Below are positions 3,632-21,268 of a DNA stretch of 64,000 nt, in pieces. A program made the position numbers and the translations under genes. Below the pieces are notes generated by a model. It was not told the DNA's origin, did not search any database, and was given only the letters and a program-made list of their open reading frames with translations. Source of the DNA: Elusimicrobiota bacterium (lineage in GTDB: Bacteria; Elusimicrobiota; Elusimicrobia; Elusimicrobiales; UBA9959); NCBI GenBank assembly GCA_026388155.1, contig JAPLKI010000022.1, positions 1 through 64,000 on the forward strand. The letters are read 5' to 3'. How positions within the stretch are numbered: the first letter of the stretch is position 1; every line of letters starts with the position of its first letter.

Positions 3632-4126
3632 ATGAAGCCATACGCTGAGACGCTCAAGGCAGGCAAGGAAAGGATGCGGCAACTGTGTATTCAGGCGGCC
3701 CTGGCCAACACTCCGGTGGCGGTCAGGGTCGTCCGCATCCGCAGAACGCTGTCAGGCAGGGCTTATAGCACCGCAGAGATAGCGGCGCCGAGGCCGGTTA
3801 CCCGGCGGGCCCTGCACATTTTCCTGCATGAATGCGCCCATGTGGCCTTGGGGCACGTCTTTGGGCCCACGTTGCCCCACGGCGGCTCCGGGCAGGCCCA
3901 GGCGGCCTCAGGGCCAAGGATCAGGCGTAAACCCCGTCATGTAGAGGAATACGAGGCTGAACAGTGGGCCTTTGCCCGCATGCGGGAGTCCGGCATCCCT
4001 ATACCCCGGAAGTCGCTGAGGCGGGCCAAGAGCTATGTGGCGTTTAAGATTCGCCAAGCCCGGCGGCGTGGTGCCAAGGCGGTCGACCGGGTGGCCCAGC
4101 GGTGGGCCGGGAGCGGAACGCCATGA
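3632..4126 (+). CDS. Putative zinc metallopeptidase-like protein (HECAH)
   Basis: A 164-residue protein containing L-H-E-C-A-H-V-A-L-G-H around residue 70, a HExxH zinc-binding motif with a further histidine nearby. Downstream V-E-E-Y-E-A-E-Q-W-A-F could supply a third ligand Glu, as in the ImmA/IrrE-like and related small peptidases. The rest is very basic. ATG 3632 was chosen because it starts 5 bases after the previous stop and follows AAGG; the frame is open further upstream only as antisense-like composition. Phage-encoded proteases of this kind often cleave repressors, but that role is unproven here. Confidence 0.6.
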   Translation: MKPYAETLKAGKERMRQLCIQAALANTPVAVRVVRIRRTLSGRAYSTAEIAAPRPVTRRALHIFLHECAHVALGHVFGPTLPHGGSGQAQAASGPRIRRKPRHVEEYEAEQWAFARMRESGIPIPRKSLRRAKSYVAFKIRQARRRGAKAVDRVAQRWAGSGTP

Positions 4127-5007
4127 GCCCGGATGCCATGCTGGCCGGCTTTATGCAGCACCTACGGGTAGAGCGGGGGCTCTCTCCATGCACTTGGACC
4201 AGTTATGGTTACCAAATTCGGGGCTATCTGCGCTTCCTTGTGGGCCGGGGGAAGACTCCGGCCACGGCTACCCGCGATCATGTCATGGCATACCTGGAGG
4301 CCAGAAGGGATGCGCGGCTGGCGAGCAGCTCGCTCTTCGCGGCGGCCATCGCCATCCGCCAATTCCATCGGTTCCTGGCGGAGAGGGGTCATGCCAAAGC
4401 AGACCCGACCATTGGAATGAAGCTTCCTAAATTTAAGCAAAGGCTGCCGGAGCCGTTAAGCGTTCAAGAGATGGCAAGGCTTCTTGATGCGCCAGTGGAT
4501 GGTAAATTTAACCACGTTCGTAACAATGCGATGTTGGAACTCATGTACGCCACCGGCATGCGCGTGTCGGAACTACTGCGCATCACGCTGGATAAAGTCA
4601 ATCTGGAAGGATGCTGTGTGCGTATCTGCGGCAAAGGCGGAAAGGATCGCATCGTTCCGTTCGGGAAGAAAGCCAATGCCGCCATTCTCCGCTACCTGGT
4701 GGCAAGGAATCAGCGATTGCCTATAGCTCAAGCTACCCTTTTTGTGAATTCGCGGGGCCAGCCGATAAACAGGGGAACGTTCTGGTGGGAACTGAGGAGA
4801 ATGGCCGGGAGAGCCGGACTGCATGGCAGGATCACGCCGCATCAAATCCGGCATAGCGCCGCGACGCATTTGTTGGAGGGGGGCGCTGACTTGCGGGTTT
4901 TACAGGAAATGCTTGGACATTGCCAAATAACTACAACACAGCGATATACGCACGTCACCGCAGAATTTCTGAAAGCGACCTGTGGTAAGGCGCATCCGAG
5001 GTTTTAA
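4123..5007 (+). CDS. Tyrosine recombinase, XerD-like
   Basis: A 294-residue tyrosine recombinase, the usual XerC/XerD length. The N-terminal SAM-like core-binding domain spans roughly residues 1-100. The catalytic domain carries Arg in G-M-R-V-S-E-L-L, a Lys in C-G-K-G-G-K-D-R, H-Q-I-R-H, L-G-H and the nucleophile Tyr in T-Q-R-Y-T-H-V. All key residues are present, so it should be active. The ATG at 4123 overlaps the previous stop. It lies 13 bases before an inverted repeat (5020-5305) that may be its substrate. It could be a second integrase, a resolvase, or an invertase for that segment. Confidence 0.9.
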   Translation: MSPDAMLAGFMQHLRVERGLSPCTWTSYGYQIRGYLRFLVGRGKTPATATRDHVMAYLEARRDARLASSSLFAAAIAIRQFHRFLAERGHAKADPTIGMKLPKFKQRLPEPLSVQEMARLLDAPVDGKFNHVRNNAMLELMYATGMRVSELLRITLDKVNLEGCCVRICGKGGKDRIVPFGKKANAAILRYLVARNQRLPIAQATLFVNSRGQPINRGTFWWELRRMAGRAGLHGRITPHQIRHSAATHLLEGGADLRVLQEMLGHCQITTTQRYTHVTAEFLKATCGKAHPRF

Positions 5008-5019
5008 ATTGCAAAAACT

Positions 5020-5305
5020 CACATCTGTCCGGGGAAATTTTGCCGCATATCATCAAATTAGCCCTACACCGCCGTATTATGGCGCATTTTCCGTCGGAAA
5101 CCGTAATCTTTAACCGCTAAGACGCCTATTTACACTCTCCTTCCTCCAATCTGGACATGATTTTGTGTATCCCGTTTTCCCTACTTTCCCGGACAGCACT
5201 GCCAAACAACCCCAAAATCGCCTTTTCATAGGGGATTTAGTCTGTTCTGAAGTCCGACTCCGCTTACATCCAGCAGCCGTTTAAAACTTTCCCCGGACAG
5301 ATGTG
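5020..5305. repeat. Inverted repeat flanking a 250-base segment
   Basis: CACATCTGTCCGGGGAAA at 5020-5037 recurs exactly in inverse orientation at 5288-5305 (18 of 18), and the match continues into TTTT with one extra base. The repeats enclose about 250 bases and begin 13 bases after the tyrosine recombinase stop. The layout resembles a recombinase-controlled invertible segment or paired core sites. Confidence 0.75.
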
Positions 5306-5462
5306 GCAAAAACTGCCATTTTCATCGCGACACTACGTTGTCGCGTTGGTCTGCTATACTTTATTTGTGAAAAAGATCGTTATGGTGCACCTTATATTGA
5401 CGGATTCACGGTCTGCATCTACACGGCTGAAGTGATGGTGAGTCAAGGATAGTTGGGGAAAT

Positions 5463-5504
5463 TTGAGTTCGTCTTGTCGATTATGTATGATGTTCCCTAG
5501 GGAA
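5463..5504 (+). promoter_or_regulatory. Promoter with palindromic operator for the RM regulator
   Basis: TTGAGT (5463-5468) and TATGAT (5486-5491) are separated by 17 bases. The perfect palindrome TTCCCTAGGGAA (5493-5504) covers the expected transcription start. The first gene begins at 5522. The arrangement fits repression of the operon by a protein bound at the start site, perhaps the HTH protein itself. Confidence 0.55.
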
Positions 5505-5521
5505 TATCGCACGGGACATTT

Positions 5522-5716
5522 ATGAAGATTGAAAATTCACAGTATATAACGTCAGCTGAGGCTGCAAAGCTTTTGGGATATACAATTCAGCATACGCGGC
5601 TTTTGATTAGACAAAACAAGTTCCGGGGGCAAAAGCTTGGTCGTGATTGGCTTATACTACAGTCAGATCTGGAAAATTATTTGAAACACATTAGAACATC
5701 TATCGCAACGAGCTAG
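5522..5716 (+). CDS. Excisionase-family HTH protein (RM regulator or Xis)
   Basis: A 64-residue protein with the MerR-like excisionase fold: I-T-S-A-E-A-A-K-L-L-G-Y, then H-T-R-L-L-I-R-Q-N-K, G-R-D-W-L-I, and a final helix starting L-E-N-Y-L. It lies 13 bases upstream of the first methyltransferase and directly behind a palindromic promoter. That position is where RM systems usually place a controller protein, although classical C proteins are XRE-type. The alternative is a directionality factor for the tyrosine recombinase upstream. The fold call is firm; the role is open. Confidence 0.75.
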   Translation: MKIENSQYITSAEAAKLLGYTIQHTRLLIRQNKFRGQKLGRDWLILQSDLENYLKHIRTSIATS

Positions 5717-5729
5717 GATAATATTAAGA

Positions 5730-6614
5730 ATGCCCACAATACTTACAAAGCGGAAAGCAATCACAGACTTAAAACTGTTAGCCGCCCCGGACAATGGGAA
5801 AAAAGTGATAATTCCATTTCGCTATCCTGGTGGAAAGTACTATGCGCTATCTGGACTAAAGCGATTTTGGCAGGCATGTCCTCACGATGAATATCGCGAG
5901 CCATTTGTTGGGGGAGGTGCAGTATTCTTTGCAAAACCTAAAGCTAAATATAGTTGGATAAATGACTTTGATTCTGAGCTTGTAAATACTTACCAGGTAA
6001 TGGCCAATGCCAAGTTGAGGCCAGAATTAGTTGAGAGGCTTTCTAAAGAAATAGCTTCTAAAGAGAGATGGGCGGAAGTTCGATCCTATCAGCCCAAAAG
6101 CAGTCTTGATAGGGCATACAGATATTACTACATCAATAGGACCTCGTTTAGTGGGAAAATGGTAAGCCCAGGTTGGGGGTATCGCCCTAAACGCAGTTTG
6201 CCCCCTGAGCGTTGGAATGAGAGACTCAATCCTTGTGGCCAGAAGTTACGAGATGTTAAGATTACATGCCTTGATTTTGAAAAGGTAATAGCTTCCCCAA
6301 GTCGTGGCAAGGGTGTATTATTGTTCCTTGACCCGCCATACTATATGCCGCCTAAGCGTAAGCACTACAGTAATGGCTTTGAGACTTCAGATCACTTGAG
6401 GCTGGCATCTTTGCTGCAAAAAACCAAGCATTCATTCATATTAACCTATGAAGATCATCCCGACATTCGTAAATTATATGAATGGGCGAGTATATATCCT
6501 GTGGAATTTTTTTACCGTGTAGATAATTCACAGGAAAATGGGCCCTCAATAGCTGCTGGCCGAAGACGCAAAGGGTTTGAGTTGGTCATCTGTAACTTTA
6601 AGGTTTCAAAATGA
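5730..6614 (+). CDS. D12-class adenine-N6 DNA methyltransferase 1
   Basis: A 294-residue Dam/D12-class enzyme that transfers a methyl group from AdoMet to adenine N6. F-R-Y-P-G-G-K near residue 31 binds AdoMet (motif I region). E-P-F-V-G-G-G-A-V-F-F follows, and L-D-P-P-Y-Y near residue 205 is the catalytic DPPY. The second methyltransferase overlaps it by 4 bases and is a clear paralogue. Two enzymes are typically needed when the recognition site is asymmetric, with one methylating each strand. The region is more AT-rich than the phage operons, suggesting separate acquisition. Confidence 0.92.
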   Translation: MPTILTKRKAITDLKLLAAPDNGKKVIIPFRYPGGKYYALSGLKRFWQACPHDEYREPFVGGGAVFFAKPKAKYSWINDFDSELVNTYQVMANAKLRPELVERLSKEIASKERWAEVRSYQPKSSLDRAYRYYYINRTSFSGKMVSPGWGYRPKRSLPPERWNERLNPCGQKLRDVKITCLDFEKVIASPSRGKGVLLFLDPPYYMPPKRKHYSNGFETSDHLRLASLLQKTKHSFILTYEDHPDIRKLYEWASIYPVEFFYRVDNSQENGPSIAAGRRRKGFELVICNFKVSK

Positions 6615-7435
6615 TTGCACGACAATTAATGCTTCTTAATCCGCAGGCTGCTGCCAGGGTGAAGTCTCCTTTCCGATACCCAGGTGGGAAATTCTACGCG
6701 ATAAAATATATGGAGCATATTTGGAATCAGGTCCCACATGACGAATACCGTGAGCCTTTTGTAGGAGGTGGGCAGGTATTCTTTTCAAAAGAAAAAGTTC
6801 GATTTAATTGGTTGAATGATATATTCGTTGACTTAATTAATGCCTACCAGGTCATTCAAGATGACTCTTTGCGACCGAAGTTGATTTCACTCTTAAATCC
6901 TGAAACTGCCGACAAGGTTCGCCATGCGGAAATGAAGGAGTGGGGGCCGCAAGATAGTTTGTCGCAGGCTTATAGGTTTTATTATTTAAACCGCACATCA
7001 TATTCGGGTATTATGAAAAAACCAGCGTGGGGCTATGCGGTTGGAAAAAGTGCTCCACCAAAATCATGGGAGCCATTTATCACTTCTTCGGCAGAGAAAC
7101 TACGGGGTGTGAAGTTGACCTCGTTGGATTTTGAAGAGGTGATTATGACTAAACCGCAGGGGCGGAAAGTCTTTATATATCTTGACCCACCATATATTGA
7201 GGCAGATCAGACACGCGCTTATGTCCATTCATTCAGGATGCATGACCACGAACGGTTGGCTAAGGTACTGCAGAAAACAAGGCATAAATTTCTTTTGTCT
7301 TACGATGACTGTGAAACAGCGCGAAAACTATATAGTTGGGCGCATTTGAGCGCGGAGGAATGGTGGTATAACACTGCAAATGTTAAGACCGTCCGGAAAA
7401 AAGGAAAAGAGTTGTTGATTACAAATTTTATTTAG
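6611..7435 (+). CDS. D12-class adenine-N6 DNA methyltransferase 2
   Basis: A 274-residue paralogue of the preceding gene. It has F-R-Y-P-G-G-K near residue 21, E-P-F-V-G-G-G-Q-V-F-F, and L-D-P-P-Y-I near residue 194. The first ~110 residues align closely with the neighbour (both have H-D-E-Y-R-E-P-F-V-G-G-G), indicating duplication followed by divergence of target recognition. Its stop overlaps the tail of the convergent nuclease gene by 8 bases. Confidence 0.92.
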   Translation: MIARQLMLLNPQAAARVKSPFRYPGGKFYAIKYMEHIWNQVPHDEYREPFVGGGQVFFSKEKVRFNWLNDIFVDLINAYQVIQDDSLRPKLISLLNPETADKVRHAEMKEWGPQDSLSQAYRFYYLNRTSYSGIMKKPAWGYAVGKSAPPKSWEPFITSSAEKLRGVKLTSLDFEEVIMTKPQGRKVFIYLDPPYIEADQTRAYVHSFRMHDHERLAKVLQKTRHKFLLSYDDCETARKLYSWAHLSAEEWWYNTANVKTVRKKGKELLITNFI

Positions 7436-8702
7436 GTAATTCTGTCCATTGCTTTGCCCATGCGTCATTAATCCTATATCGTTGCATTTTAGAATATCTA
7501 AGCTTTTGCATGGAATTTATCCTTCGAGGATATTTCTGATGCGCGATAAGTTCTGATACAGGGATTGAATAAAACTCCCAAGAAACATCATCCTTGGGAT
7601 TGCGGCCTCCGCTTCTACATAAGTTGATTTGGTATGCCAGTTGAGGCTCAATACAAACGATTACCCCTTCAAAATCTGTTTTTAAATAGAGACGACTTTG
7701 AGTCGGGTGATCGTTTGCCCTGCCGCGCGAGAGTTGTGTCTCAACACCAATTATAGGATCTGTTTGGTTGAAATCGCATGCCCCAACAGTCGGCCCTTTT
7801 ACCTGGAAGTGTTCACAGCCATTTCCAACCCTTCTAAGCAGTGCTATGTCGGCTTTATCAGCCCTAGGCCTTGAACAGTGGCTAACATCATACGCTACGA
7901 CACGTTGATCTTTAAGAAAGAATCTAAATGCATGCTCTCTCGCAAAACCACGCATGTTCATATCCCAAATTCGGAAGTTCTCTTCTTGAATAATGGTGTC
8001 AACAATTATTTCAGAACTTAACTCTGTAAGTTTAGATGTGCGTGGCAGTAAAGATGTTTTCGGATGAGTGTGGCTACTCATCACTTCTAAATCTAGTTTT
8101 TTTATCCCTAGCCGATTAAAGGCTCCTAGTCCGGAATGCAGACTCCAATTGATGGTGAATGGACTAAGTATGCGTTTTCTATCTTTCGGATGTGTGGGTA
8201 ATTCATCCCTACCTAAAATCATAATCCTTAGTGGGGTATATGTGATTAGCCCTACAAGAAAATCAGCGAAGGAGTCCGCCCCATGGTAGTATTCCAGAGA
8301 TTCTTGTTCTGATTTCGCTCCGTGTGTCTTGTGAGTTTTATATTGAACTTCAGTTTCTCTGGTCCCAGACCGTGTCGGGGTCTTAAGTTGGAGAGTGTGC
8401 CCATTTAGAACCTGATCTATATCTGTGTCCCCACCACGTTTTTCGATGGTATGGCCATTTCTTGCCAGTAAAATCTGGAAGAAAGTCTCAAAGGCGTGGC
8501 CTTGGACTGTGCGCAGGACAGGAGAATTGTCGGCTATAAGTGCATCGAGTTGTTCAGGGCTAAAATCAAGAACATAACAGAGAGTATTAAGTTTATCTTT
8601 TTCAGAAATAGAGTCTAGGGAATCAACTTTATGTCTGTGCTTAAGCCCTTTTATCACATCCCCGATGCGACCGAACCCGAAATCCTTGCGAGTGAATGGC
8701 AT
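7428..8702 (-). CDS. Predicted type II restriction endonuclease with two PD-(D/E)XK-like motifs
   Basis: A 424-residue protein convergent with the two methyltransferases. Around residues 69-107 it reads G-H-A-F-E-T-F-F, then D-T-D-I-D, then Q-L-K. Around 256-302 it reads E-H-A-F-R-F-F, then A-D-I-A-L-L, then F-Q-V-K. Each block looks like a PD-(D/E)XK core (acidic residue, then Q-x-K), and each ends in a P-T a few residues later. This suggests an internally duplicated nuclease that could cut both strands as a monomer, or one active and one DNA-binding copy. The role as the restriction subunit is inferred from linkage. RBS GGAG lies 7 bases before the ATG. Confidence 0.7.
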   Translation of the reverse strand: MPFTRKDFGFGRIGDVIKGLKHRHKVDSLDSISEKDKLNTLCYVLDFSPEQLDALIADNSPVLRTVQGHAFETFFQILLARNGHTIEKRGGDTDIDQVLNGHTLQLKTPTRSGTRETEVQYKTHKTHGAKSEQESLEYYHGADSFADFLVGLITYTPLRIMILGRDELPTHPKDRKRILSPFTINWSLHSGLGAFNRLGIKKLDLEVMSSHTHPKTSLLPRTSKLTELSSEIIVDTIIQEENFRIWDMNMRGFAREHAFRFFLKDQRVVAYDVSHCSRPRADKADIALLRRVGNGCEHFQVKGPTVGACDFNQTDPIIGVETQLSRGRANDHPTQSRLYLKTDFEGVIVCIEPQLAYQINLCRSGGRNPKDDVSWEFYSIPVSELIAHQKYPRRINSMQKLRYSKMQRYRINDAWAKQWTELPK

Positions 8703-8740
8703 CTCTAATCTCCGAATAAATTTGAATCTGAATTCTTTTT

Positions 8741-8770
8741 ATCATAGCACTTTGCTTCTAAAGGAAACAA
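8741..8770 (-). promoter_or_regulatory. Promoter of the restriction endonuclease gene
   Basis: On the minus strand TTGTTT (8765-8770) and TATGAT (8741-8746) are 18 bases apart. The GGAG ribosome-binding site and ATG of the nuclease follow about 40 bases later. The nuclease therefore does not depend on read-through from the phage late operon. Confidence 0.5.
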
Positions 8771-8790
8771 AGTTGTTTTGTAGCAGGTTC

Positions 8791-9369: not shown

Positions 9370-9646
9370 TTTCATCTCCTCCGGGCGGCTTGTGGTTCCC
9401 GTTGCCGTTCCCGTTTTTGACCTTCTCGTAGGTTTTGGTGAGGACGTAGCCCGCAAACACAACGCTGACGATGCCGCCGGTGACGGTGATGGCGGTCGAA
9501 AGGTGTTCCGGATGATATAGCGCAGTCCAGACGCACAGGAAGACGTATAGGGCGAGATAGACGTAATATGTGATGGCCGCGCTTATGTCACGTAGCCAGC
9601 GAAAGTCATTGGGTTTCCTTGGGATATCACCTTCTGGACGCAACAT
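9353..9646 (-). CDS. Holin-like membrane protein
   Basis: A 97-residue protein with two hydrophobic stretches (about residues 23-44 and 50-68) and a charged, Gly/Asn-rich C-terminal tail, the layout of small phage holins. It carries an AGGGAC/GGAGGG site before the ATG, precedes the membrane-anchored protein by a 17-base overlap, and was next to the endolysin before the RIT element inserted between them. Holin families are diverse, so the call rests on size, topology and position. Confidence 0.55.
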   Translation of the reverse strand: MLRPEGDIPRKPNDFRWLRDISAAITYYVYLALYVFLCVWTALYHPEHLSTAITVTGGIVSVVFAGYVLTKTYEKVKNGNGNGNHKPPGGDENGASD

Positions 9647-9665
9647 AATAAAGTCCCTCCGTCCT

Positions 9666-10664
9666 CTACAGCAATTTCAAGAATGCCATGACCCCACGGT
9701 TATCGCGCCACTGTGCCCTGGGCAGGGTTGCTGTCTGAATTTCGCAATGAGCGAGGGCATTGGCCTTCATTTCGAGATCAATCTCGGCGTAAATATGCGT
9801 TGTGTCGAGGGACACATGCCCCAGCCAGGCCCGGATGGTGTTGATGTCCACCCCGGCGCGAAGCAGGTGTACTGCCGTCGTATGGCGGAGCGTATGCGCA
9901 GTTATCTGTTTGGTCGCCATAGAAGGAATGTGGCGGCTCGCTTTGTCGGCGTAACGTTTAACCAAAGTGTTGATTCCGAAACGCGTAATACTCTGCTTGA
10001 GACGGTTCAGGAAAGCCATCGTGGCGGTTTCCCGACTGCATATGAGATCGGCCATCACTTTGGCTGTCGAGGGCCAAAGCGGACAATGACGCACTTTTCC
10101 AGCCTTCCCCACGAGCTTAACCGACGCAGATCCATTCAAGTTCAAATCGGCAACAGTAACGTGGGCAGCCTCGCTGGCTCGAGCCCCTGTGTTGTAAAGG
10201 AAAAGCAGGAGGGCGTAATCCCGGAGTCCCTGTGACGTGCTGCGATCAGGGGCCTCAAGAATGGCATCCATTTCGGCCTTCTCGAGGTAACACATCACCG
10301 GCTTGGAAGATTTCTTAAGCGGAATCGAGCGGACCTCGGCGCACCAAGCAATATGTTCCGGGCTATGCTCGGCAATGAATTTTGCTAACGCGTGGATAGC
10401 CGCCAGCCGCTGATTGCGAGTAGCGATGGAGCACTTCCGGTCTTGCTCAAGGTGAAGCAGGAAAGATCGGACTACTTCAGGCGAGATGTTCTCGATAGTG
10501 AGCTTATCCACGGACCTGTTCACTTTCGCGGCAGCGAACGGAAGCAAGAGAGCCAGTGTATCGCGATAGCTTGTCTGAGTGTTGCGCGCGAGATTCCGTT
10601 CAGCCACTATGTGCTCCATGAGAAACCGACGAACCCAATGACCGATTAGCGTTGCATTAAACAT
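9666..10664 (-). CDS. ritC: RIT recombinase, third of trio
   Basis: A 332-residue tyrosine recombinase. Residues of the active site are visible: Arg in N-T-G-A-R-A-S-E, then H-T-L-R-H-T-T-A-V-H, W-L-G-H and Tyr in T-H-I-Y-A-E-I-D. The start overlaps the preceding recombinase by 8 bases. In RIT elements all three recombinases are retained together, implying they act as a complex. Its stop lies about 10 bases from the left end of the element. Confidence 0.85.
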   Translation of the reverse strand: MFNATLIGHWVRRFLMEHIVAERNLARNTQTSYRDTLALLLPFAAAKVNRSVDKLTIENISPEVVRSFLLHLEQDRKCSIATRNQRLAAIHALAKFIAEHSPEHIAWCAEVRSIPLKKSSKPVMCYLEKAEMDAILEAPDRSTSQGLRDYALLLFLYNTGARASEAAHVTVADLNLNGSASVKLVGKAGKVRHCPLWPSTAKVMADLICSRETATMAFLNRLKQSITRFGINTLVKRYADKASRHIPSMATKQITAHTLRHTTAVHLLRAGVDINTIRAWLGHVSLDTTHIYAEIDLEMKANALAHCEIQTATLPRAQWRDNRGVMAFLKLL

Positions 10665-11604
10665 GACTCACCTCCGGGAAGGCATAACATTCGAAGCGAT
10701 GGTTCGCTGCCTGCAGCAATTCCATCGTCATGGTCAGGTATCGCTGGGTAAAGGCGATGTCGACGTGGCCGAGATAGGTGGACAGTTTGGGCAGGAGCCG
10801 CTGAACATCGGCTCCCTGGCGGTACCAAGCTTCCATCCTGTGCACGGCAAAGGTATGGCGGATATCATGGATTCTCGGCTGGTAACGCGCCTCGCGCTCG
10901 CGATGGATACTGGTCTTGTCACGCAGCCACCGAAAAGTCTTATCAGCCTGACTGACCGCAATGCCAGTACCCTTACGCGTGGCAAAGAAGGTAGAGTCTT
11001 CGCCCGCCGGGCATGGCAGCGCCTGCCGCCGTCTTTTAATATAGGCATCCAGTTCGGTGGTCAGACGGGGACCGATGGGTACCAGCCTGGTTTTGAAGAA
11101 TTTGCTGTCACGGATATGCAGTAGGCTCGCCGACAAATCCACGTCGGCCAATGTAAGCGACACAGCCTCGCCGATACGGAGCCCGGCTCCATAGAGGAGA
11201 AGCAGAAGTGTGCGGAAAATGACAGGACGCAGAGGATTGAGACGGTCGGAAAGTCGTGACGTTGCCTCCAATAGATGGCGCAGTTCATCGATGGTATATA
11301 TGTAGGGCGCCATACTGGCCGGTCGTTTGGGTAGTATTGTAGGCAATGGGGATGATGATACATAGCCTCTGGAGACAGCGAAGGCATAGAAACCTTTGAG
11401 TATGATGAACTTTTGGTGCCAGAAGGTTGTAACGGGTCCTTTCCCTGCGAGGAAGGTGATCACGGAGGATTGTTTCACCTCCCCGGCGTCGAGGTCTCCT
11501 ATCGCCCGGCAGAAGCCCTTGAGGATCACTGGCTCCGTTAAGAAGCGCATACCGAGGGAGCGTTTGAACTTTATGTACTCATCCGTAAGCTGTGTGAGTT
11601 TCAT
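10657..11604 (-). CDS. ritB: RIT recombinase, second of trio
   Basis: A 315-residue tyrosine recombinase with Arg in G-A-G-L-R-I-G-E, H-D-I-R-H-T-F-A-V-H, L-G-H and Tyr in T-Q-R-Y-L-T-M. Between the H-x-x-R and G-H boxes it has the longer spacer (A-W-Y-R-Q-G-A-D-V) seen in this subtype. The ATG overlaps the stop of the first recombinase (ATGA), so translation is coupled. Confidence 0.85.
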   Translation of the reverse strand: MKLTQLTDEYIKFKRSLGMRFLTEPVILKGFCRAIGDLDAGEVKQSSVITFLAGKGPVTTFWHQKFIILKGFYAFAVSRGYVSSSPLPTILPKRPASMAPYIYTIDELRHLLEATSRLSDRLNPLRPVIFRTLLLLLYGAGLRIGEAVSLTLADVDLSASLLHIRDSKFFKTRLVPIGPRLTTELDAYIKRRRQALPCPAGEDSTFFATRKGTGIAVSQADKTFRWLRDKTSIHREREARYQPRIHDIRHTFAVHRMEAWYRQGADVQRLLPKLSTYLGHVDIAFTQRYLTMTMELLQAANHRFECYAFPEVSHV

Positions 11605-12848
11605 GGAAGCCCCCCTATATCGAAGGCGGCCACCTCTCGTAGGCCCGTCAGATCCACTTTGGCATAAATTCTGGTGGCCGAGGAGGTACGATGTCCCAAA
11701 AGATCGCCAATTTCCTTAAGCGAAAAGCCTTGAGAAACGAGATGAGTGGCGCACGCATGCCGCAACGCATGCGGGCCCCTGTGAGGCAGATGAATCCCCA
11801 GTCCCATGGCCTGTTCGCTGATCGTATGATAAAGAGTCCCTTGGGAGATGGGCCGGAAGGGAGCTGTAGACGCCAGGAACACCTCTCGACGGGAGCAATG
11901 GGGACGGACAGCTTGCAAGTATTGGAGGATGGCATTCCCCACGACAGGCACGAGCGGGTAGGTTTGAGCTCGTCGGAGTTTGGGTCGTCGGATCAATATC
12001 TGGTCATGTTCCCAGTCGATATCTTCGAGCTTAAGTTGCGAGACCTCGCCTACACGCAGCCCGTATATGGACAGGAGCATTATGGCGGCCCGATTCCTAA
12101 TATCGATCGGCTTATCCGTATCCAAGCTGGCAATAAGGCGTTGCACATCCTCCCATGTCGGTCCCGAGGGGAGATTTTCCTGGGAGAATATCCGAGGCCC
12201 TCGAATAGCATCCGCTATCGATGTCAGGCACCAGCCTCGCATTCCGCCGAACCTAAAAAAAGCCTTGAGTGCACGGGCGTTGTTGACCACGCTTACCCGA
12301 GTCCAGTGACTAGCACCATGTTCGGTCAAATAGGCATCAATATCAGCGATCTGGATGTCGGACATGGGATGTCCTTTTGCCTCATACCAGCGCAGGAATT
12401 GTCTGATATACCGGTACCGCCTCCAGATAGTCGTTGGAGACAGCCCTCGCGCGCTTTTCATCCACGCGGCGAATTCGTCGATCATGCCAGACGAAGATGC
12501 CGATATTTGAGGCGGCTTATACAGGCGGCCAAGAAAACGAAGCCATTGTGTCGCCACCACCCAGAAAAGTTTATACGAGGATTTGCCAAAGCGCGCGCGT
12601 CCAATGCGCCGCTGCCGCCGGGCCCATCGGGCTGCTACCATTTTAATCTGGTCAGAAGTCATCATCAATTCACCTGCACTACCAAGTTCGCGAACCACAA
12701 TAAGAAGCTCCGAGGACAGCGAGAACAGTGTGCTACGCGCATACCCTTCCTGGGCGCGTTGTGCAAGAAAGTCTTCACGCTCTTTACTATACGGGGCATC
12801 TTTGTGGCGACAGATGGTTCTATGGTCTGTGTAGAGTTGCTCAAACAT
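11601..12848 (-). CDS. ritA: RIT recombinase, first of trio
   Basis: A 415-residue tyrosine recombinase, the largest of the three. The catalytic set is present: Arg in Y-G-L-R-V-G-E, H-A-L-R-H-A-C-A-T-H, L-G-H and Tyr in R-I-Y-A-K-V-D. An N-terminal extension of about 90 residues precedes the core-binding domain. ATG 12848 was chosen over 12875 because AAGGAGG sits 7 bases upstream. About 100-160 bases upstream are palindromes that may be its binding sites. Confidence 0.85.
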   Translation of the reverse strand: MFEQLYTDHRTICRHKDAPYSKEREDFLAQRAQEGYARSTLFSLSSELLIVVRELGSAGELMMTSDQIKMVAARWARRQRRIGRARFGKSSYKLFWVVATQWLRFLGRLYKPPQISASSSGMIDEFAAWMKSARGLSPTTIWRRYRYIRQFLRWYEAKGHPMSDIQIADIDAYLTEHGASHWTRVSVVNNARALKAFFRFGGMRGWCLTSIADAIRGPRIFSQENLPSGPTWEDVQRLIASLDTDKPIDIRNRAAIMLLSIYGLRVGEVSQLKLEDIDWEHDQILIRRPKLRRAQTYPLVPVVGNAILQYLQAVRPHCSRREVFLASTAPFRPISQGTLYHTISEQAMGLGIHLPHRGPHALRHACATHLVSQGFSLKEIGDLLGHRTSSATRIYAKVDLTGLREVAAFDIGGLP

Positions 12849-12978
12849 AGTTGGACCTCCTTTTGGGATATCCAACTATACTGACAGGATGTTGCGCTTA
12901 TGTGGCGTCGCATTTATAAAAGCTCATGAAATACAAAGCTCTTTGCTTTCTACGTAACATAAGTGCGGCCATCACATA
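12849..12978. other. RIT upstream region
   Basis: Non-coding leader of the recombinase trio. It includes an imperfect palindrome starting TTATGTGGCG at about 12898 and the left part of the palindrome at 12952-12984. No canonical promoter could be assigned with confidence, although TATAGT at about 12885 on the minus strand is a candidate -10. Confidence 0.4.
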
Positions 12979-13005
12979 TTACGTTTTATGTGCTGCCGCA
13001 CATAA
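12952..13005. repeat. Palindromic pair at the right end of the RIT element
   Basis: Two adjacent palindromes: 12952-12984 with outer arms ACGTAA and TTACGT, and 12986-13005 with perfect arms TTATGTGC and GCACATAA around TGCC. They share the core GTGCGGC and CACATA. Spacing and symmetry suggest recombinase-binding sites at the element end. Confidence 0.7.
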
Positions 13006-13119
13006 GACGTAGTTCCAGGTAGTTCGAAGCGACTTGAGGTCCCGCATCAGGTTCTGCGCGAAGTCGCTTTCGAAGGTATTCTTTGCCAGCGCCAGTGTCA
13101 GTCGTTTTATTCTGTCCAT
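12979..13119 (-). pseudogene. Small phage lysis-module gene truncated by the RIT element
   Basis: Starts with ATG overlapping the endolysin stop (ATGA) and a GAGAGGA site. It reads 38 plausible phage codons beginning M-D-R-I-K-R-L-T-L-A-L-A-K, then enters the RIT palindrome and stops after 46 codons. The final residues (L-C-A-A-A-H-K-T) are encoded by RIT DNA. The lost C-terminus is not found on the left side of the element. Original function unknown; short lysis-module membrane or antiholin proteins are typical at this place. Confidence 0.65.
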
Positions 13120-13691
13120 CACAGTTCCTCTCTAAAAAGACTCATGTCCCAGCATTTTCCGGGACAGGATTTCTGTCTGGGCACTCCGAGCCGGTCGAAT
13201 ACTTCCCAGTGCCCGATTACATGACTGGCCGGTATGCGGAAGGCTTCCATAAAGGCGCGCGTCAGTTGTAGGTTGAATTCCCAATGCTCAGGTTTGGGCG
13301 GGGCTTTATCAAAATCTCCAACAGCACACAGGCCTAAGTAGTCTGTGTTGTAAATATTTGACGCTCCTTTGACACCGGCGTGAGCGCCGATTTGGCTGAG
13401 CGGCCTGCCCCAGTTGTAAACTACCTGGCCGTTTACCCATTCTGTCCCGCCGTGGTATGCAATATCGATCCAGGGCGGCTGGAACGACTTGCCAAGTCCG
13501 GTTGCCAACCGCCGCTTATAGTCGGCTTCGGAAACGATGCTGCCGTCTATGCGGTATGATGTGTGGTAGCGGCGTATGGCATCCCAGTCCCGCGCTACCC
13601 CGTCCGGACTGGCCGAATGATGCCAGACTATGCCGGTCCAAGGTCTGGACCGGCATACATCAATATTCAGCGCTAGTTTTGGCTTGTTCAT
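13119..13691 (-). CDS. Endolysin, N-acetylmuramoyl-L-alanine amidase
   Basis: A 190-residue protein of the amidase_2/PGRP fold, which cuts the bond between MurNAc and the stem peptide. I-V-W-H-H-S-A near residue 22 gives the first zinc-ligand His, V-I-G-H-W-E-V-F near residue 158 the second, and C-P-G-K at about 177 the third ligand Cys, as in T7 lysozyme-type amidases. D-I-A-Y-H and G-A-H-A-G-V-K-G segments are also typical. No signal peptide, so it would need the holin. AGGAGG lies 5 bases before the ATG. Confidence 0.88.
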   Translation of the reverse strand: MNKPKLALNIDVCRSRPWTGIVWHHSASPDGVARDWDAIRRYHTSYRIDGSIVSEADYKRRLATGLGKSFQPPWIDIAYHGGTEWVNGQVVYNWGRPLSQIGAHAGVKGASNIYNTDYLGLCAVGDFDKAPPKPEHWEFNLQLTRAFMEAFRIPASHVIGHWEVFDRLGVPRQKSCPGKCWDMSLFREEL

Positions 13692-16158: not shown

Positions 16159-18909
16159 TTATATCTCCAGCAGGTCCATCTCAGTCCTGAAATTCATTAA
16201 GTCATGCGCTATACCGATAATCCTGGCATCGAACGCTTCTCCGATTTGCCGAGGGTCTGGGATGTTCAGCCTGACCCGGTCACTCAGTTCCATCTCTGGC
16301 ATAAACCTGGTCGTAAGCGTTGCCCGGCGCTTCGGCTCCTTGTAGCGGCTGAAATATCGCTTTGCCATTACGGTCGCCAGATCTACGTCGGCCTGGAATA
16401 ACATCCCGCCGCCGCCTACTGACAACGGCCTGATCCCAAAGCGCTGGTTTGATGTGGGTGCAGGGTCTCCCTCGGTCTGTGAGTCCGCCGTTTTAACGAA
16501 CTCGCCGAAGTTCGCTCTGATGCTGTTGTAAACCCTGTCCCAGCCGGGACTGATGCTTTGGACCTTCTCTATGTTTGAGCCGTCCAGGGTAATCAAAGGA
16601 GAGGCGATTGTTGTCTTGTTCCTGAAAAAGAACCGGCCATCACCGTCAAGGCCGAGGTCAAAGTCGGCTATTCTTGCCAGCTCCTTGATTACATCCAGCA
16701 CCGACCGGCTGCCGAAGTTTGCCATCGTGATGAGGATGTCTCTGGTGGTCAGCGTAATGATGCTTAGCGTGTGCGCGGGGGGAACTACTCCAGCTGTGTT
16801 TAGCAGCGTAATAAAAGCCATCTTAGGTGGCATCCCGAAGCCGTTGGATACAGCGAACTCGTCGGAGATTATTGTGTCATTCGGCCCCAGCGCCCGGTGG
16901 TAGCCATAGCCTGACATCGTAAGCGGCGTGACAACTGCAGTAAATCTCTGGACGGTGCCGTTGTTTGGAATAACCGCTGCCTTCCAGGTATCCCAGGAAG
17001 CTATCCCTGAGCCGCCATCAATTGCCGGTGAGACCGCGATAGCTGGCAGCCATACCCGTTTAACGCCATAAGGGAGTGACTCAAGGGTGTCAGTTAAAAC
17101 AATTTTGAGCGTTATATACCTGGGAGAATGAACATTTGTCCAGTTCCCGATATTTCCGCCATTGAGGACAGGCATTTCTGTGGGGTAAGAATAGGTGTCG
17201 TTGCCCCAACACCAGTAAAACTGGGCTCCCGCCGGTAAGCCTTGCAACTCTGCGAAGAACGGCCCTAAGGTGGTTATAAGCGCGAATGTCGTTAGGCCAG
17301 AGAGAACTACTCCATAATCCACCCAAAGAGTTATCTGCCCTGTCGCTGGGGTCGGGCTTATGCCGTTATAGCGGATAAAGTCTATGCTGAAAGTGCTATT
17401 CGTGCCTGTGCTTGATTGAAGCCGGACTCCGGAAGTGCCGCCGGAGAGCGTTCCCAGCGTTCCAGAAAGAACCTGCGTACCGTCAATAAACAGTGCCCAG
17501 GTCCCAGCTGATACGCTTGTCATGGTAAGTGCGAGACGAAATGTATGGAACTGCGTAAGATCCACATTGTAACCGGGACTAAGTGTGGCAGACCGAACTT
17601 TTACTTTGTTTAGGTCTGTTATTTCAATTTGTGCGCCTCGATAAGGGGATTGTCCTACCATTGTTCCCAGTGTGATGGTCCCGTGGACTGCTGAGAATCT
17701 CATTCTGGCGCAAACGCATCTTGATAGCCCAAACTCTTCGGCCTGGTTGTAGAGCATGTAATCCGCGCCGCCGTTGTGTGTCACCGTTCTTATGCTATCG
17801 GCAAGTGTGGCTGTCGAACCTGTTGGCAAGGTTTCCGACCAGGGGAATGTGTAATCGCCCTCAACCGTGCCTTTCTCTAGAGCCGGTGCGTAGTCGCCTT
17901 CATATTGCGAAGTCCATTTTGGATGAATCCCGTCTTTTATCCGGCGGAAATTTATGCGGTTGACATTTAACACCGCTTCCCATTCAGCCTGTGTGTCATA
18001 CGGATTGATAGTAAGCTGCCCATCGCCCTCTGGCGGCTCTGCTTCAGCTACAACTGCCGCCCGGTGTAAACTGTAAGACGCGAAGTCCACTAACTGTGTG
18101 TGCAGTATTTCGCGCTGGGCGGGCGGCTCGAACTGTACGGTTTCAATCGCCGCTGTCTGGACCTGTGGTACTGAGGCAATAAGGTCGCTTGCTACGCTGT
18201 GGATTCGCTGGTCCCGTTTCCAGGTCACATAATCTGCCCGCACCTCCGCGCCGAGGGGCGGCTGAACGGTTTCAAATTTAATTACAGCGGTCTTTGTTGG
18301 GTCATTTAAGCCTGTAGCGCTCCATCTGGTGCCAGGGCGCATCACCTCGCCGCCGACGCGCACAGCTTTCACGGCTCCTACAGGTGTGTTGGCGAGTGCA
18401 AACTCAGCTTTTAAGCCATCGCCAATGCCAAGAAGCTCATTAGTTACGAGGATGGCCGCTTTGTCAGCGTCGGCATCTTCAAGCAGTTGGTCTGTCGATT
18501 GGATGTCCAGTTGCAGTGTGGGTGTGCCGGAGTCCTCTATGGTGTCCTCAATGACCCCGGTGAAGGTCGGGAAGGTCTCGTCAGCGCCGGAGACCTTAAG
18601 CCCTAAAGATACTCTGATTTTGGAATGAAATCGCTGGAATCCCGCGAAGCGGCCTGCCGATCCGGCGTCCCATTGCCGCTTTGCGTTTTCTACTTCTATG
18701 CGGATGTTGGAGGCCTTATATTCGTTTAATGCCTCTGTATCCAGCTTCCAGGAAAGCCGGTCAAGCCTGACGACTTCGGTGGTAATATCAATGGGAGTGG
18801 TCTCCCAGCTTGAGCCGTCTGCCAGCCTTCGAAAAAGCTCAACTTTCCTGACCGGATAAATCAGGTTTGAGGTCTGTGCAGCTTTGTATCCTGCTGAAGT
18901 GGTCTTCAT
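16159..18909 (-). CDS. Tail hub / tail-associated protein
   Basis: A 916-residue protein whose ATG overlaps the tape-measure stop, the standard place for distal tail or hub proteins. The N-terminal ~240 residues (Y-P-V-R-K-V-E-L-F-R-R, then V-E-V-E-N-A-like strands) look like the hub fold that attaches to the tail tube end. Residues ~370-520 look like a LamG/concanavalin-type jelly roll. The C-terminal ~250 residues return to hub-like sequence, suggesting the lectin-like part was inserted. Family membership not proven. Confidence 0.6.
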   Translation of the reverse strand: MKTTSAGYKAAQTSNLIYPVRKVELFRRLADGSSWETTPIDITTEVVRLDRLSWKLDTEALNEYKASNIRIEVENAKRQWDAGSAGRFAGFQRFHSKIRVSLGLKVSGADETFPTFTGVIEDTIEDSGTPTLQLDIQSTDQLLEDADADKAAILVTNELLGIGDGLKAEFALANTPVGAVKAVRVGGEVMRPGTRWSATGLNDPTKTAVIKFETVQPPLGAEVRADYVTWKRDQRIHSVASDLIASVPQVQTAAIETVQFEPPAQREILHTQLVDFASYSLHRAAVVAEAEPPEGDGQLTINPYDTQAEWEAVLNVNRINFRRIKDGIHPKWTSQYEGDYAPALEKGTVEGDYTFPWSETLPTGSTATLADSIRTVTHNGGADYMLYNQAEEFGLSRCVCARMRFSAVHGTITLGTMVGQSPYRGAQIEITDLNKVKVRSATLSPGYNVDLTQFHTFRLALTMTSVSAGTWALFIDGTQVLSGTLGTLSGGTSGVRLQSSTGTNSTFSIDFIRYNGISPTPATGQITLWVDYGVVLSGLTTFALITTLGPFFAELQGLPAGAQFYWCWGNDTYSYPTEMPVLNGGNIGNWTNVHSPRYITLKIVLTDTLESLPYGVKRVWLPAIAVSPAIDGGSGIASWDTWKAAVIPNNGTVQRFTAVVTPLTMSGYGYHRALGPNDTIISDEFAVSNGFGMPPKMAFITLLNTAGVVPPAHTLSIITLTTRDILITMANFGSRSVLDVIKELARIADFDLGLDGDGRFFFRNKTTIASPLITLDGSNIEKVQSISPGWDRVYNSIRANFGEFVKTADSQTEGDPAPTSNQRFGIRPLSVGGGGMLFQADVDLATVMAKRYFSRYKEPKRRATLTTRFMPEMELSDRVRLNIPDPRQIGEAFDARIIGIAHDLMNFRTEMDLLEI

Positions 18910-20888
18910 ACCGCTTCCTTGGACAGCCGTCCCTGCTTTGAGATGATGGATTTAACAAGCTCTGCGCCCTCGGCTGTGCCGGAACGGGTAACCTCGGACA
19001 TGCGCCGCATTAACTGTTTTACCTGCTCATCGCCTACACCGGTGACCGTAATAGTGTTGTGTTGTATGACCGACACGTTTACGTCCCCGCCAGATATGTT
19101 CCCGCCAGGTGCATCCCCGGTAAACTTGTCTAACTGGTCAAGCGGGATGACTGCTTCAGGGCCGCTTTCCGCAATTGTTGCCAGGACAGGCTTTGTGACG
19201 ATAGCGCCGTCGGCAAATCCAAAAATCTTCTTCAATCCTTTAGAGACCGATGGTGCGATAGCCATGAAACCGGCAGTTAAAAGCCCTCCACCAATGCCAC
19301 CAGAGGCTGCTCCCGCAGATGAGGCTGCGGAATCTGCCAAGGCTCTCTCTACGGCGATGCGGGTGAATGTTTCAATGGCTGTTCTTAAGACCGTATTCAT
19401 TACGGCCTTCCAGGCATCCTCAAAACTTTTGCCTTGCAGGATCATGTCCGCCACGGCACCGGAGAATGAAGAGGCAAAGGCTTCAGATACAGCCTTTTGA
19501 GTGTCGTGTACCATTATAAGGTCGCCGTTTATAGCATCCCTTGCCTTCTGGGATTCCGCAATAGAAATGGCGGTCGCGTTCATCCTGGCGGCGGTAAGTT
19601 CGTCCTCGGTTATCAGGCCCTTGGTTCGTAAATCCTCAAATTGCTGCAGCCGTTGAGTCTTCTCTTGCTCAATGAGCATCAGCCTGGACTCCAGGCTCTG
19701 CCCCTCGGATTACAGGCGTTCCGCGTCAAGCTGGATTAGTTTGTCATGCGCGTCCTGCGCCTGGCGCTTTTTCTCGTCGGCCTCTTTTTGCGAGTCTTCT
19801 ATCGATTTCTCGGTAACTCTGGCTTTAAGTTCAACTTCCTGTGTAATCAGCTCTTGGCGCTCATCTGAATAACGCTTGTGAACCTCGGCTGCCTGCTCAA
19901 CTGAGGCTTCCTCTATGGCCTGCATCTTTACATTGGCATCCTGCACGATATCCGGCAGCCGGTCGAATTGCCCTTTAAAGATAGCGCCCCAGCCGCTGGC
20001 AGTCTGCTCAATGATTACCATGGCCTTGGCACCCCAGTTAGCCATGACGACCCCGAGGACCTCGAAGAACTGTGTCCCTTTTAGGAGCGCGGCAAGCAGG
20101 AAGTTGAAAACTGGTAACACACCCATGCCGACTACCTCTTTGAAATCGTCCAGCCGATTTCGTGAGGTTGCGAGTTGCTGTGCAAAACCAGATTCCCTTT
20201 CTGCTGCTCCAAGAAACTTTTTAGAAAGGGCATCTATTACTTCCTGCGAAGTGTTCGCATCACCTATGAACGCGCCAAACTCGGTCTTAAGCGCCCGCAT
20301 GCGGCTGGCGTCGCCATTGAGAATCGGGCCAAGGAGTTCTAAAACTTGGTTGAAGTCTTTGCCAGACGCGGACGCAAGTCCAAATGCCAGCTTTGTAGCC
20401 TGCATGGCTTGCCCGGCATCGCCAGTAATCCTTGTAAGCTTACTGAGTGCCTCATAAGTGTCTGTATCTGAAAACCTGGTCAGGGCCTGCTGCTCTTGCG
20501 CGAACGCCATGATGCGTTCTTTTTCCTTGCCAAAAGAGCCGCCGGTTGCCTCGACCGCAAACTGGAGCCGTCTTAATGCGTCCTCTTCGCCTGAGGCCGC
20601 GTCCGCTGCGGATTTAAAGAAAGCAGCTATACCGGCGACTGTGGCAAAGCCCGCCAGCTGATTTATAAGCTGGCCTGCCGCGCCTTGGACAGCCGACATC
20701 GATTGCGCCGCTGCGTTAACTTTGGGGGGGAGCGCCGTAAAGGCTTTATCAGCCCGCGCCGTGGATTTTTCAATTAAGCCCGCGAATTTATCGGAGCGTT
20801 GCGCGGCGTCAAGGAGTTGTTGCGACAGCCGCTGGATGGCGGGCGAGGCCTGGTCTACGGCCTCGAATATTATCTCGAAGCCGGGCAT
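18906..20888 (-). pseudogene. Tail tape-measure protein interrupted by an in-frame TAA
   Basis: One reading frame from ATG 20888 to 18906 (about 660 codons) encodes a tape-measure-like protein: an N-terminal Ala/Gln-rich helical region (A-V-D-Q-A-S-P-A-I-Q-R-L), a hydrophobic centre, a long charged coiled coil, and a C-terminal Gly/Ala part with I-A-E-S-G-P-E-A-V-I-P-L, a motif common in tape-measure proteins. A TAA at 19710-19712 breaks the coiled coil; both sides stay in the same frame. An ATG at 19679 with GGAG 9 bases upstream could restart translation. Either the gene is dead, it makes two polypeptides, or the base is a sequencing error. ATG 20888 chosen for AAAGGCGG. Confidence 0.8.
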
Positions 20889-20890
20889 GG

Positions 20891-21268
20891 TTAAACCGCC
20901 TTTGGTATGCAATCAAGGGTAAAATTTATTATCTCGACAAAAAGCCCGACCGCGAGCGGATATTCGGCAATAATTGCGTCCACCGGCACCGCGTCACGAT
21001 CCCCGTCACCAACTCCGATTTTGGGTGAGATTATTCCGTATAAAAGCACACGCCGGAACTGCGGCAGCTTGGGATTGGATATAAGCTCATTTATGCGCTT
21101 GGCCAGCGCGTCCCGGCCTTCCCGCGCGATAGCCCAGAAATCGGCGGTCTCGTCACCTAAAAACAGCAGCGGCACGCGGCGTATGCGGAAACACAAACCG
21201 CAGACTTCCACGGTTTTCTCTTTGTTGAGCCGCTCCTTGAGCATGTTTACGGAAACTGGTTCATACAT
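20891..21268 (-). CDS. Putative tail assembly chaperone
   Basis: A 125-residue protein between the tail tube and tape-measure genes, the conserved place of tail assembly chaperones. It is mixed alpha/beta with a helical C-terminus. No slippery frameshift motif was seen, so only one product is expected. ATG 21268 was chosen because AGGA lies 8 bases upstream; it overlaps the tube gene stop region. Call is positional. Confidence 0.5.
   Translation of the reverse strand: MYEPVSVNMLKERLNKEKTVEVCGLCFRIRRVPLLFLGDETADFWAIAREGRDALAKRINELISNPKLPQFRRVLLYGIISPKIGVGDGDRDAVPVDAIIAEYPLAVGLFVEIINFTLDCIPKAV

Follow-up and report, generated by a model that had tools for sequence, protein, structure and literature searches.

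A two-methyltransferase cassette in an Elusimicrobiota prophage

We analysed the first 64,000 nucleotides of contig JAPLKI010000022.1 from an Elusimicrobiota bacterium (GenBank assembly GCA_026388155.1; hereafter the window), which carries a cassette encoding two DNA methyltransferases, M1 and M2, and a putative restriction endonuclease, R, together with a small helix–turn–helix (HTH) gene (Table 1). The initial annotation had located these four open reading frames correctly, and its description of a restriction–modification (RM) cassette with two paralogous D12-class methyltransferases is borne out by the PF02086 matches of both proteins and by the retention of the pair in related systems. 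The stop codon of M1 and the start codon of M2 share an ATGA overlap, and the two genes are translationally coupled. R is convergent with M2, and the ends of the two genes overlap by 8 nt.

Table 1. Features of the cassette and its prophage surroundings (window coordinates)
Feature	Position	Strand	Evidence or remark
HTH gene, 64-aa protein (HTH_17/excisionase-like)	5522–5716	+	PF12728 E 3e-9; TIGR01764 E 1e-8
M1, 294 aa, D12-class N6-adenine DNA methyltransferase	5730–6614	+	PF02086 E 8e-29; FVGGG, DPPY
M2, 274 aa, D12-class N6-adenine DNA methyltransferase, M1 paralogue	6611–7435	+	PF02086 E 2e-28; FVGGG, DPPY
R, 424 aa, candidate restriction endonuclease; two PD-(D/E)XK cores predicted	7428–8702	-	Invariant motif sets; model; fold matches
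R core 1, residues ~60–107 (helix with E72, D92/D96, Q105-x-K107)	8382–8525	-	Invariant in 6 homologues; helix 60–81 and strands 97–99, 102–107 in model; sub-threshold Mrr_cat
R core 2, residues ~240–302 (helix with E256, D282/D285, Q300-x-K302)	7797–7985	-	D282, D285, Q300, K302 invariant, E256 in 5/6; PD-(D/E)XK structures match the second half when it is folded alone
Low-GC cargo segment, in place of the Type I RM system of G025	5357–8790	.	Composition; flank alignment to L026, which has HsdM, HsdS and HsdR there
Integrase	4102–5007		One flank of cassette
Amidase endolysin (prophage late gene)	13119–13691		Other flank of cassette
Tape-measure-like prophage late genes	18906–20912
RIT-like tyrosine recombinase genes	9666–10664, 10657–11604, 11601–12875	- (all)

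Old paralogous methyltransferases that travel with R

Both methyltransferases score far above the PF02086 (MethyltransfD12) cut-off of 22 bits (M1, 101 bits; M2, 100 bits) and have an intact motif I (FVGGG) and motif IV (DPPY), which places them in the D12 class. They are approximately 46% identical and have the entire D12 core in common. Across six systems, the M1 and M2 clades separate on all 200 of 200 bootstrap trees; therefore, the two are, as judged from their sequences, old paralogues that predate the spread of the system. At thirteen alignment columns, each clade is fixed for a residue of its own, for which different specificities of M1 and M2 would be the simplest reading.

The other five systems come from three Clostridia metagenome-assembled genomes (MAGs), those of Ruminiclostridium (L001), Gemmiger (L002) and a rumen Clostridia bacterium (L003), from plasmid AP017993 of Planktothrix agardhii NIES-204 (L005) and from a viral contig (L006). 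All five keep the gene order R–M2–M1, with R convergent on the methyltransferases. The three MAG systems are mutually closest, as are those of the plasmid and the viral contig, and these groupings are alike for R, M1 and M2, as would be expected had the three genes been inherited together. The R family is rare: within the phylum of the window, 1 of 341 genomes carries the system (the window itself), and the class that contains L001 and L003 has two clear cases in 391 genomes. R homologues were absent from the phages searched, and the viral contigs searched yielded one in total. A possible decayed remnant of an R C terminus, with three stop codons, occurs in another genome of the L001 class (L015, G449:C3:25867-26040; E 8e-4).

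Two Acinetobacter plasmids (L008 3995–5650 and L009 2489–4144) carry a single D12 methyltransferase that is 45% identical to M2. Convergent with this gene, and overlapping it, is a gene for a 266-aa hypothetical protein with a GKAFE motif (read in L008), which is likely to be an unannotated restriction enzyme working with one methyltransferase. We considered this protein as a one-core ancestor of R; the match is just a short GKAFE-like one (38 columns, probability 1.6%), and we therefore make no claim of ancestry.

The HTH gene has no homologue in the five related loci (tblastn) and may either regulate the cassette or belong to the phage. We rejected it as a conserved controller (C) protein of an RM system: it is HTH_17/excisionase-like and not HTH_3, and it is absent from the related loci, among which an HTH_3 gene immediately precedes R in that of Planktothrix only.

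Two nuclease-like cores in one chain

The six R proteins are 41–55% identical, apart from one near-identical pair, and 109 of 424 alignment columns (26%) are invariant. Against this divergence, all six retain E72, D92, D96, Q105 and K107 in the first half of the protein (core 1) and D282, D285, Q300 and K302 in the second (core 2); E256 of core 2 is present in five. Two basic loops, KTHKTHGAK (122–130) and RGRxNDHxTQSR (326–337), are also strongly conserved. The initial annotation had pointed to two acidic-plus-QxK sets in R, and these are present, as D96...Q105-L-K107 and D285...Q300-V-K302. It had also described a repeated HAFxxFF motif and a P-T after each QxK. The literal repeat does not hold, as HAFETFF (69–75) and HAFRFFL (257–263) differ in spacing and the second HAF is missing in every relative, where REAILNQ, REHVLTK, RQQAFEK or REVVFQE is found; likewise, P-T is not conserved downstream of the second QxK. 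We therefore discard HAFxxFF as a conserved feature and regard it as a coincidence of the R sequence in the window alone. In a profile alignment, the counterpart of GHAFE (68–72) is GFARE (252–256), approximately four residues from the second HAF. The two-set layout is thus real, despite the unconserved HAFxxFF.

A full-length AlphaFold2 model of R (mean predicted local distance difference test (pLDDT) score of 71; predicted template-modelling (pTM) score of 0.78) contains two helix-plus-strands cores. The first half has a helix at 60–81, strands at 86–88, 97–99 and 102–107, and further strands at 148–154 and 159–164; the second has a helix at 240–265, strands at 286–289 and 296–302, and then strands at 346–351 and 376–381. 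The top match of the whole model among Protein Data Bank (PDB) folds is the homing endonuclease I-Ssp6803I, followed by Hjc and EcoRV. When residues 226–424 were folded alone, I-Ssp6803I (2ost) again came first (E 2e-3, probability 1.00), ahead of a SPARDA chain, Hjc, EcoRV and PvuII. Core 2 (residues 226–424) thus has a predicted PD-(D/E)XK fold, the type in which a helix plus beta-meander carries acidic and (E/Q)xK residues on adjacent strands. None of the matches of residues 226–424 reached E 0.001, which supports placement in the PD-(D/E)XK superfamily and not a closer kinship; I-Ssp6803I, a PD-(D/E)XK enzyme, differs in having a single core and is 11–16% identical to R.

For core 1 (residues 60–165), the order of secondary-structure elements in the model fits PD-(D/E)XK and the motif is invariant. 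Residues 63–125 match Mrr_cat (PF04471) at 13.5 bits, below the gathering cut-off of 21, and sub-threshold matches recur in four of the six family members (best E 0.005; best score 17.3 bits). No member reaches the cut-off, so R is not assigned to Mrr_cat; the sub-threshold match and the layout of the model together suggest a PD-(D/E)XK fold for core 1. The invariant residue sets, the model and the fold matches of core 2 thus support the proposal of the initial annotation that one R chain holds two PD-(D/E)XK-like cores.

Aligned as profiles, the N-terminal and C-terminal halves pair GHAFE with GF(A/I/S)RE, D96 with D285, and QxK with QxK. The alignment scores 24.6, compared with a maximum of 23.5 among 300 column shuffles (0 of 300 as high). 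A rotation control was uninformative because most rotations leave the matching block whole. The alignment, albeit weak, points to the duplication of one core.

Prophage cargo and a likely exchange slot

With a GC content of 0.42 (compared with about 0.55), the cassette forms a low-GC island between an integrase gene and prophage late genes. A genome from another genus of the same family (G025) holds the same prophage at 81–86% identity, and a complete Type I RM system (HsdM, HsdS and HsdR; L026 2550–8922, G025:C27) occupies the position that corresponds to 5357–8790 of the window. This position thus looks like a slot in which restriction cargo is exchanged, in support of the defence function that we infer for the cassette.

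Other mobile sequences lie nearby. A recombinase-in-trio (RIT)-like element (9561–12984) consists of three tyrosine recombinase genes that overlap one another, with 57-nt inverted repeats (81%) on either side. It is absent from the G025 prophage, in which the positions equivalent to 9559 and 13028 are approximately 22 nt apart in L026. Just past the stop codon of the integrase is a 286-bp insertion (5020–5305) that resembles a miniature inverted-repeat transposable element. Its terminal inverted repeats are 22 nt long (95%), and it is bordered by a 9-bp target duplication, GCAAAAACT, at 5011–5019 and 5306–5314. Its empty site is visible in L026, and it is the sole copy in the genome. Elsewhere in the genome of the window, the prophage flanks have a second, more distant relative (68–72% identity), around 101024–122035 of G000:C7; the host therefore probably carries at least two related prophages.

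A probable Type IIT system

We propose, with a probability of about 0.72, that the locus is a complete Type II RM cassette on the Type IIT plan, carried by the prophage as defence cargo. The target would be non-palindromic, with one adenine N6-methylated by M1 on one strand and another by M2 on the opposite strand; such a division of labour on an asymmetric sequence is what the pair naturally suggests. R would be one polypeptide with two E...D...QxK catalytic cores, probably derived by the duplication of one core. On unmodified DNA, each core would cut one strand, at or near the site, and R would act as a monomer. Catalysis, target, cut position and oligomeric state of R are all predicted here. 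Type IIT restriction endonucleases are defined by two different catalytic sites (PMC4081073). R has this feature at the level of sequence and model only, and its proposed membership of Type IIT therefore rests on it; two conserved, divergent D12 methyltransferases are encoded beside R. An asymmetric recognition sequence, cleaved internally or close to one of its sides, is a further mark of Type IIT and would be expected for R.

Several observations weigh against this proposal. Searches of Pfam, NCBIfam, PADLOC, PHROGs and PDB sequences gave no match to R that passed the threshold. The AlphaFold2 models were built on five sequences, and some loops near both active sites have pLDDT values below 50, with a mean of only about 71. 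The similarity between the halves is weak (hhalign P 0.004, probability 8%), and the Planktothrix homologue has Q in place of E256. A pair of methyltransferases can also act at a single symmetric site, as in DpnII.

The substitution of E256 in core 2 would fit an enzyme in which one half alone cleaves, the other nuclease-like half serves as a DNA-recognition or structural domain, and R dimerises to cut both strands, as ordinary Type IIS or Type IIP enzymes do. A nuclease fold can be recruited for binding, and the conserved basic loops at 122–130 and 326–337 could be recognition elements. However, six divergent proteins retain the D...QxK residues of both halves without exception, which would not be expected of a degenerate core, and we regard this arrangement as unlikely. 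Less probable again is a symmetric or redundant target for the two methyltransferases (for example, with a split between double-stranded and single-stranded or hemimethylated substrates, as in DpnII), R being a Type IIP-like enzyme that contains an internal duplication. The closest solved relatives of the methyltransferases, 7m6b (the record of which gives no specificity) and M.DpnII, a GATC enzyme, favour such a target, as does the D12 core shared by M1 and M2, though at only about 46% identity. The 13 positions fixed differently in each clade and the invariable retention of the pair speak against it.

The prophage location and the presence of D12 methyltransferases akin to M2 in phages that lack an R-type nuclease could instead indicate that the locus is unrelated to restriction, the methyltransferases being epigenetic or anti-restriction enzymes of the phage and R acting in another process. 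We consider this very improbable, given that the three genes travel jointly on a plasmid, on chromosomal MAG contigs and on a viral contig, and that a Type I RM system holds the same prophage slot in G025.

Relation to known Type IIT enzymes

The initial annotation considered a monomer with two catalytic sites to be an unusual type II design. This is not supported, as Type IIT is already established and includes single-chain, two-site enzymes, among them Mva1269I, BtsCI, AciI, BsrI, BssSI and BsrBI (PMC4081073), and its members generally come with two methyltransferases, one for each strand (PMC4081073, PMC6097692). The predicted plan of R is that of these six single-chain enzymes, with which it is compared here by description. 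The two cores are unlike each other in Mva1269I (one EcoRI-like and one FokI-like) and in BtsCI (SD-X6-E-X14-QR and PD-Xn-EXK), whereas both cores of R are of the D...QxK type and can be aligned with each other. AciI is accompanied by two fused methyltransferases and a control protein (PMC4081073); the methyltransferases of the window are separate and of the D12 class.

BbvCI, another Type IIT enzyme, has two catalytic sites that serve the two strands of its asymmetric target; its subunits R1 and R2 superpose, and a fused or tethered single-chain form is active (PMC6326814). BbvCI is naturally a heterodimer or heterotetramer, unlike the single-chain R, and PDB searches detected no sequence similarity between them. 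Systems of the FokI and MhoVII type also have two N6-adenine methyltransferases, one per strand of an asymmetric site (PMC4081073, PMC12898733), although FokI dimerises to cut both strands (PMC12898733). The methyltransferases of FokI and MhoVII are fused, unlike those of the window, and M1.MhoVII is YhdJ-like, not D12.

It is about an even bet that R is a compact single-chain enzyme that cuts strand by strand and arose when one QxK-type PD-(D/E)XK core was duplicated internally, and not through the fusion of two different nucleases as in Mva1269I and BtsCI, in which case it would define a new restriction endonuclease family. The R family is unnamed in the libraries that we used, and same-core duplication is a modest novelty. 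Type IIT enzymes are convertible to nickases (PMC4081073), and single-chain, two-site enzymes can become strand-specific nickases through the mutation of one site. The general picture of Type II restriction is unchanged by this cassette. R would nonetheless add to Type IIT a rare single-chain, two-site family in which both cores apparently come from one ancestor, and a comparison of its halves would show how a single core adapts to either strand of an asymmetric target.
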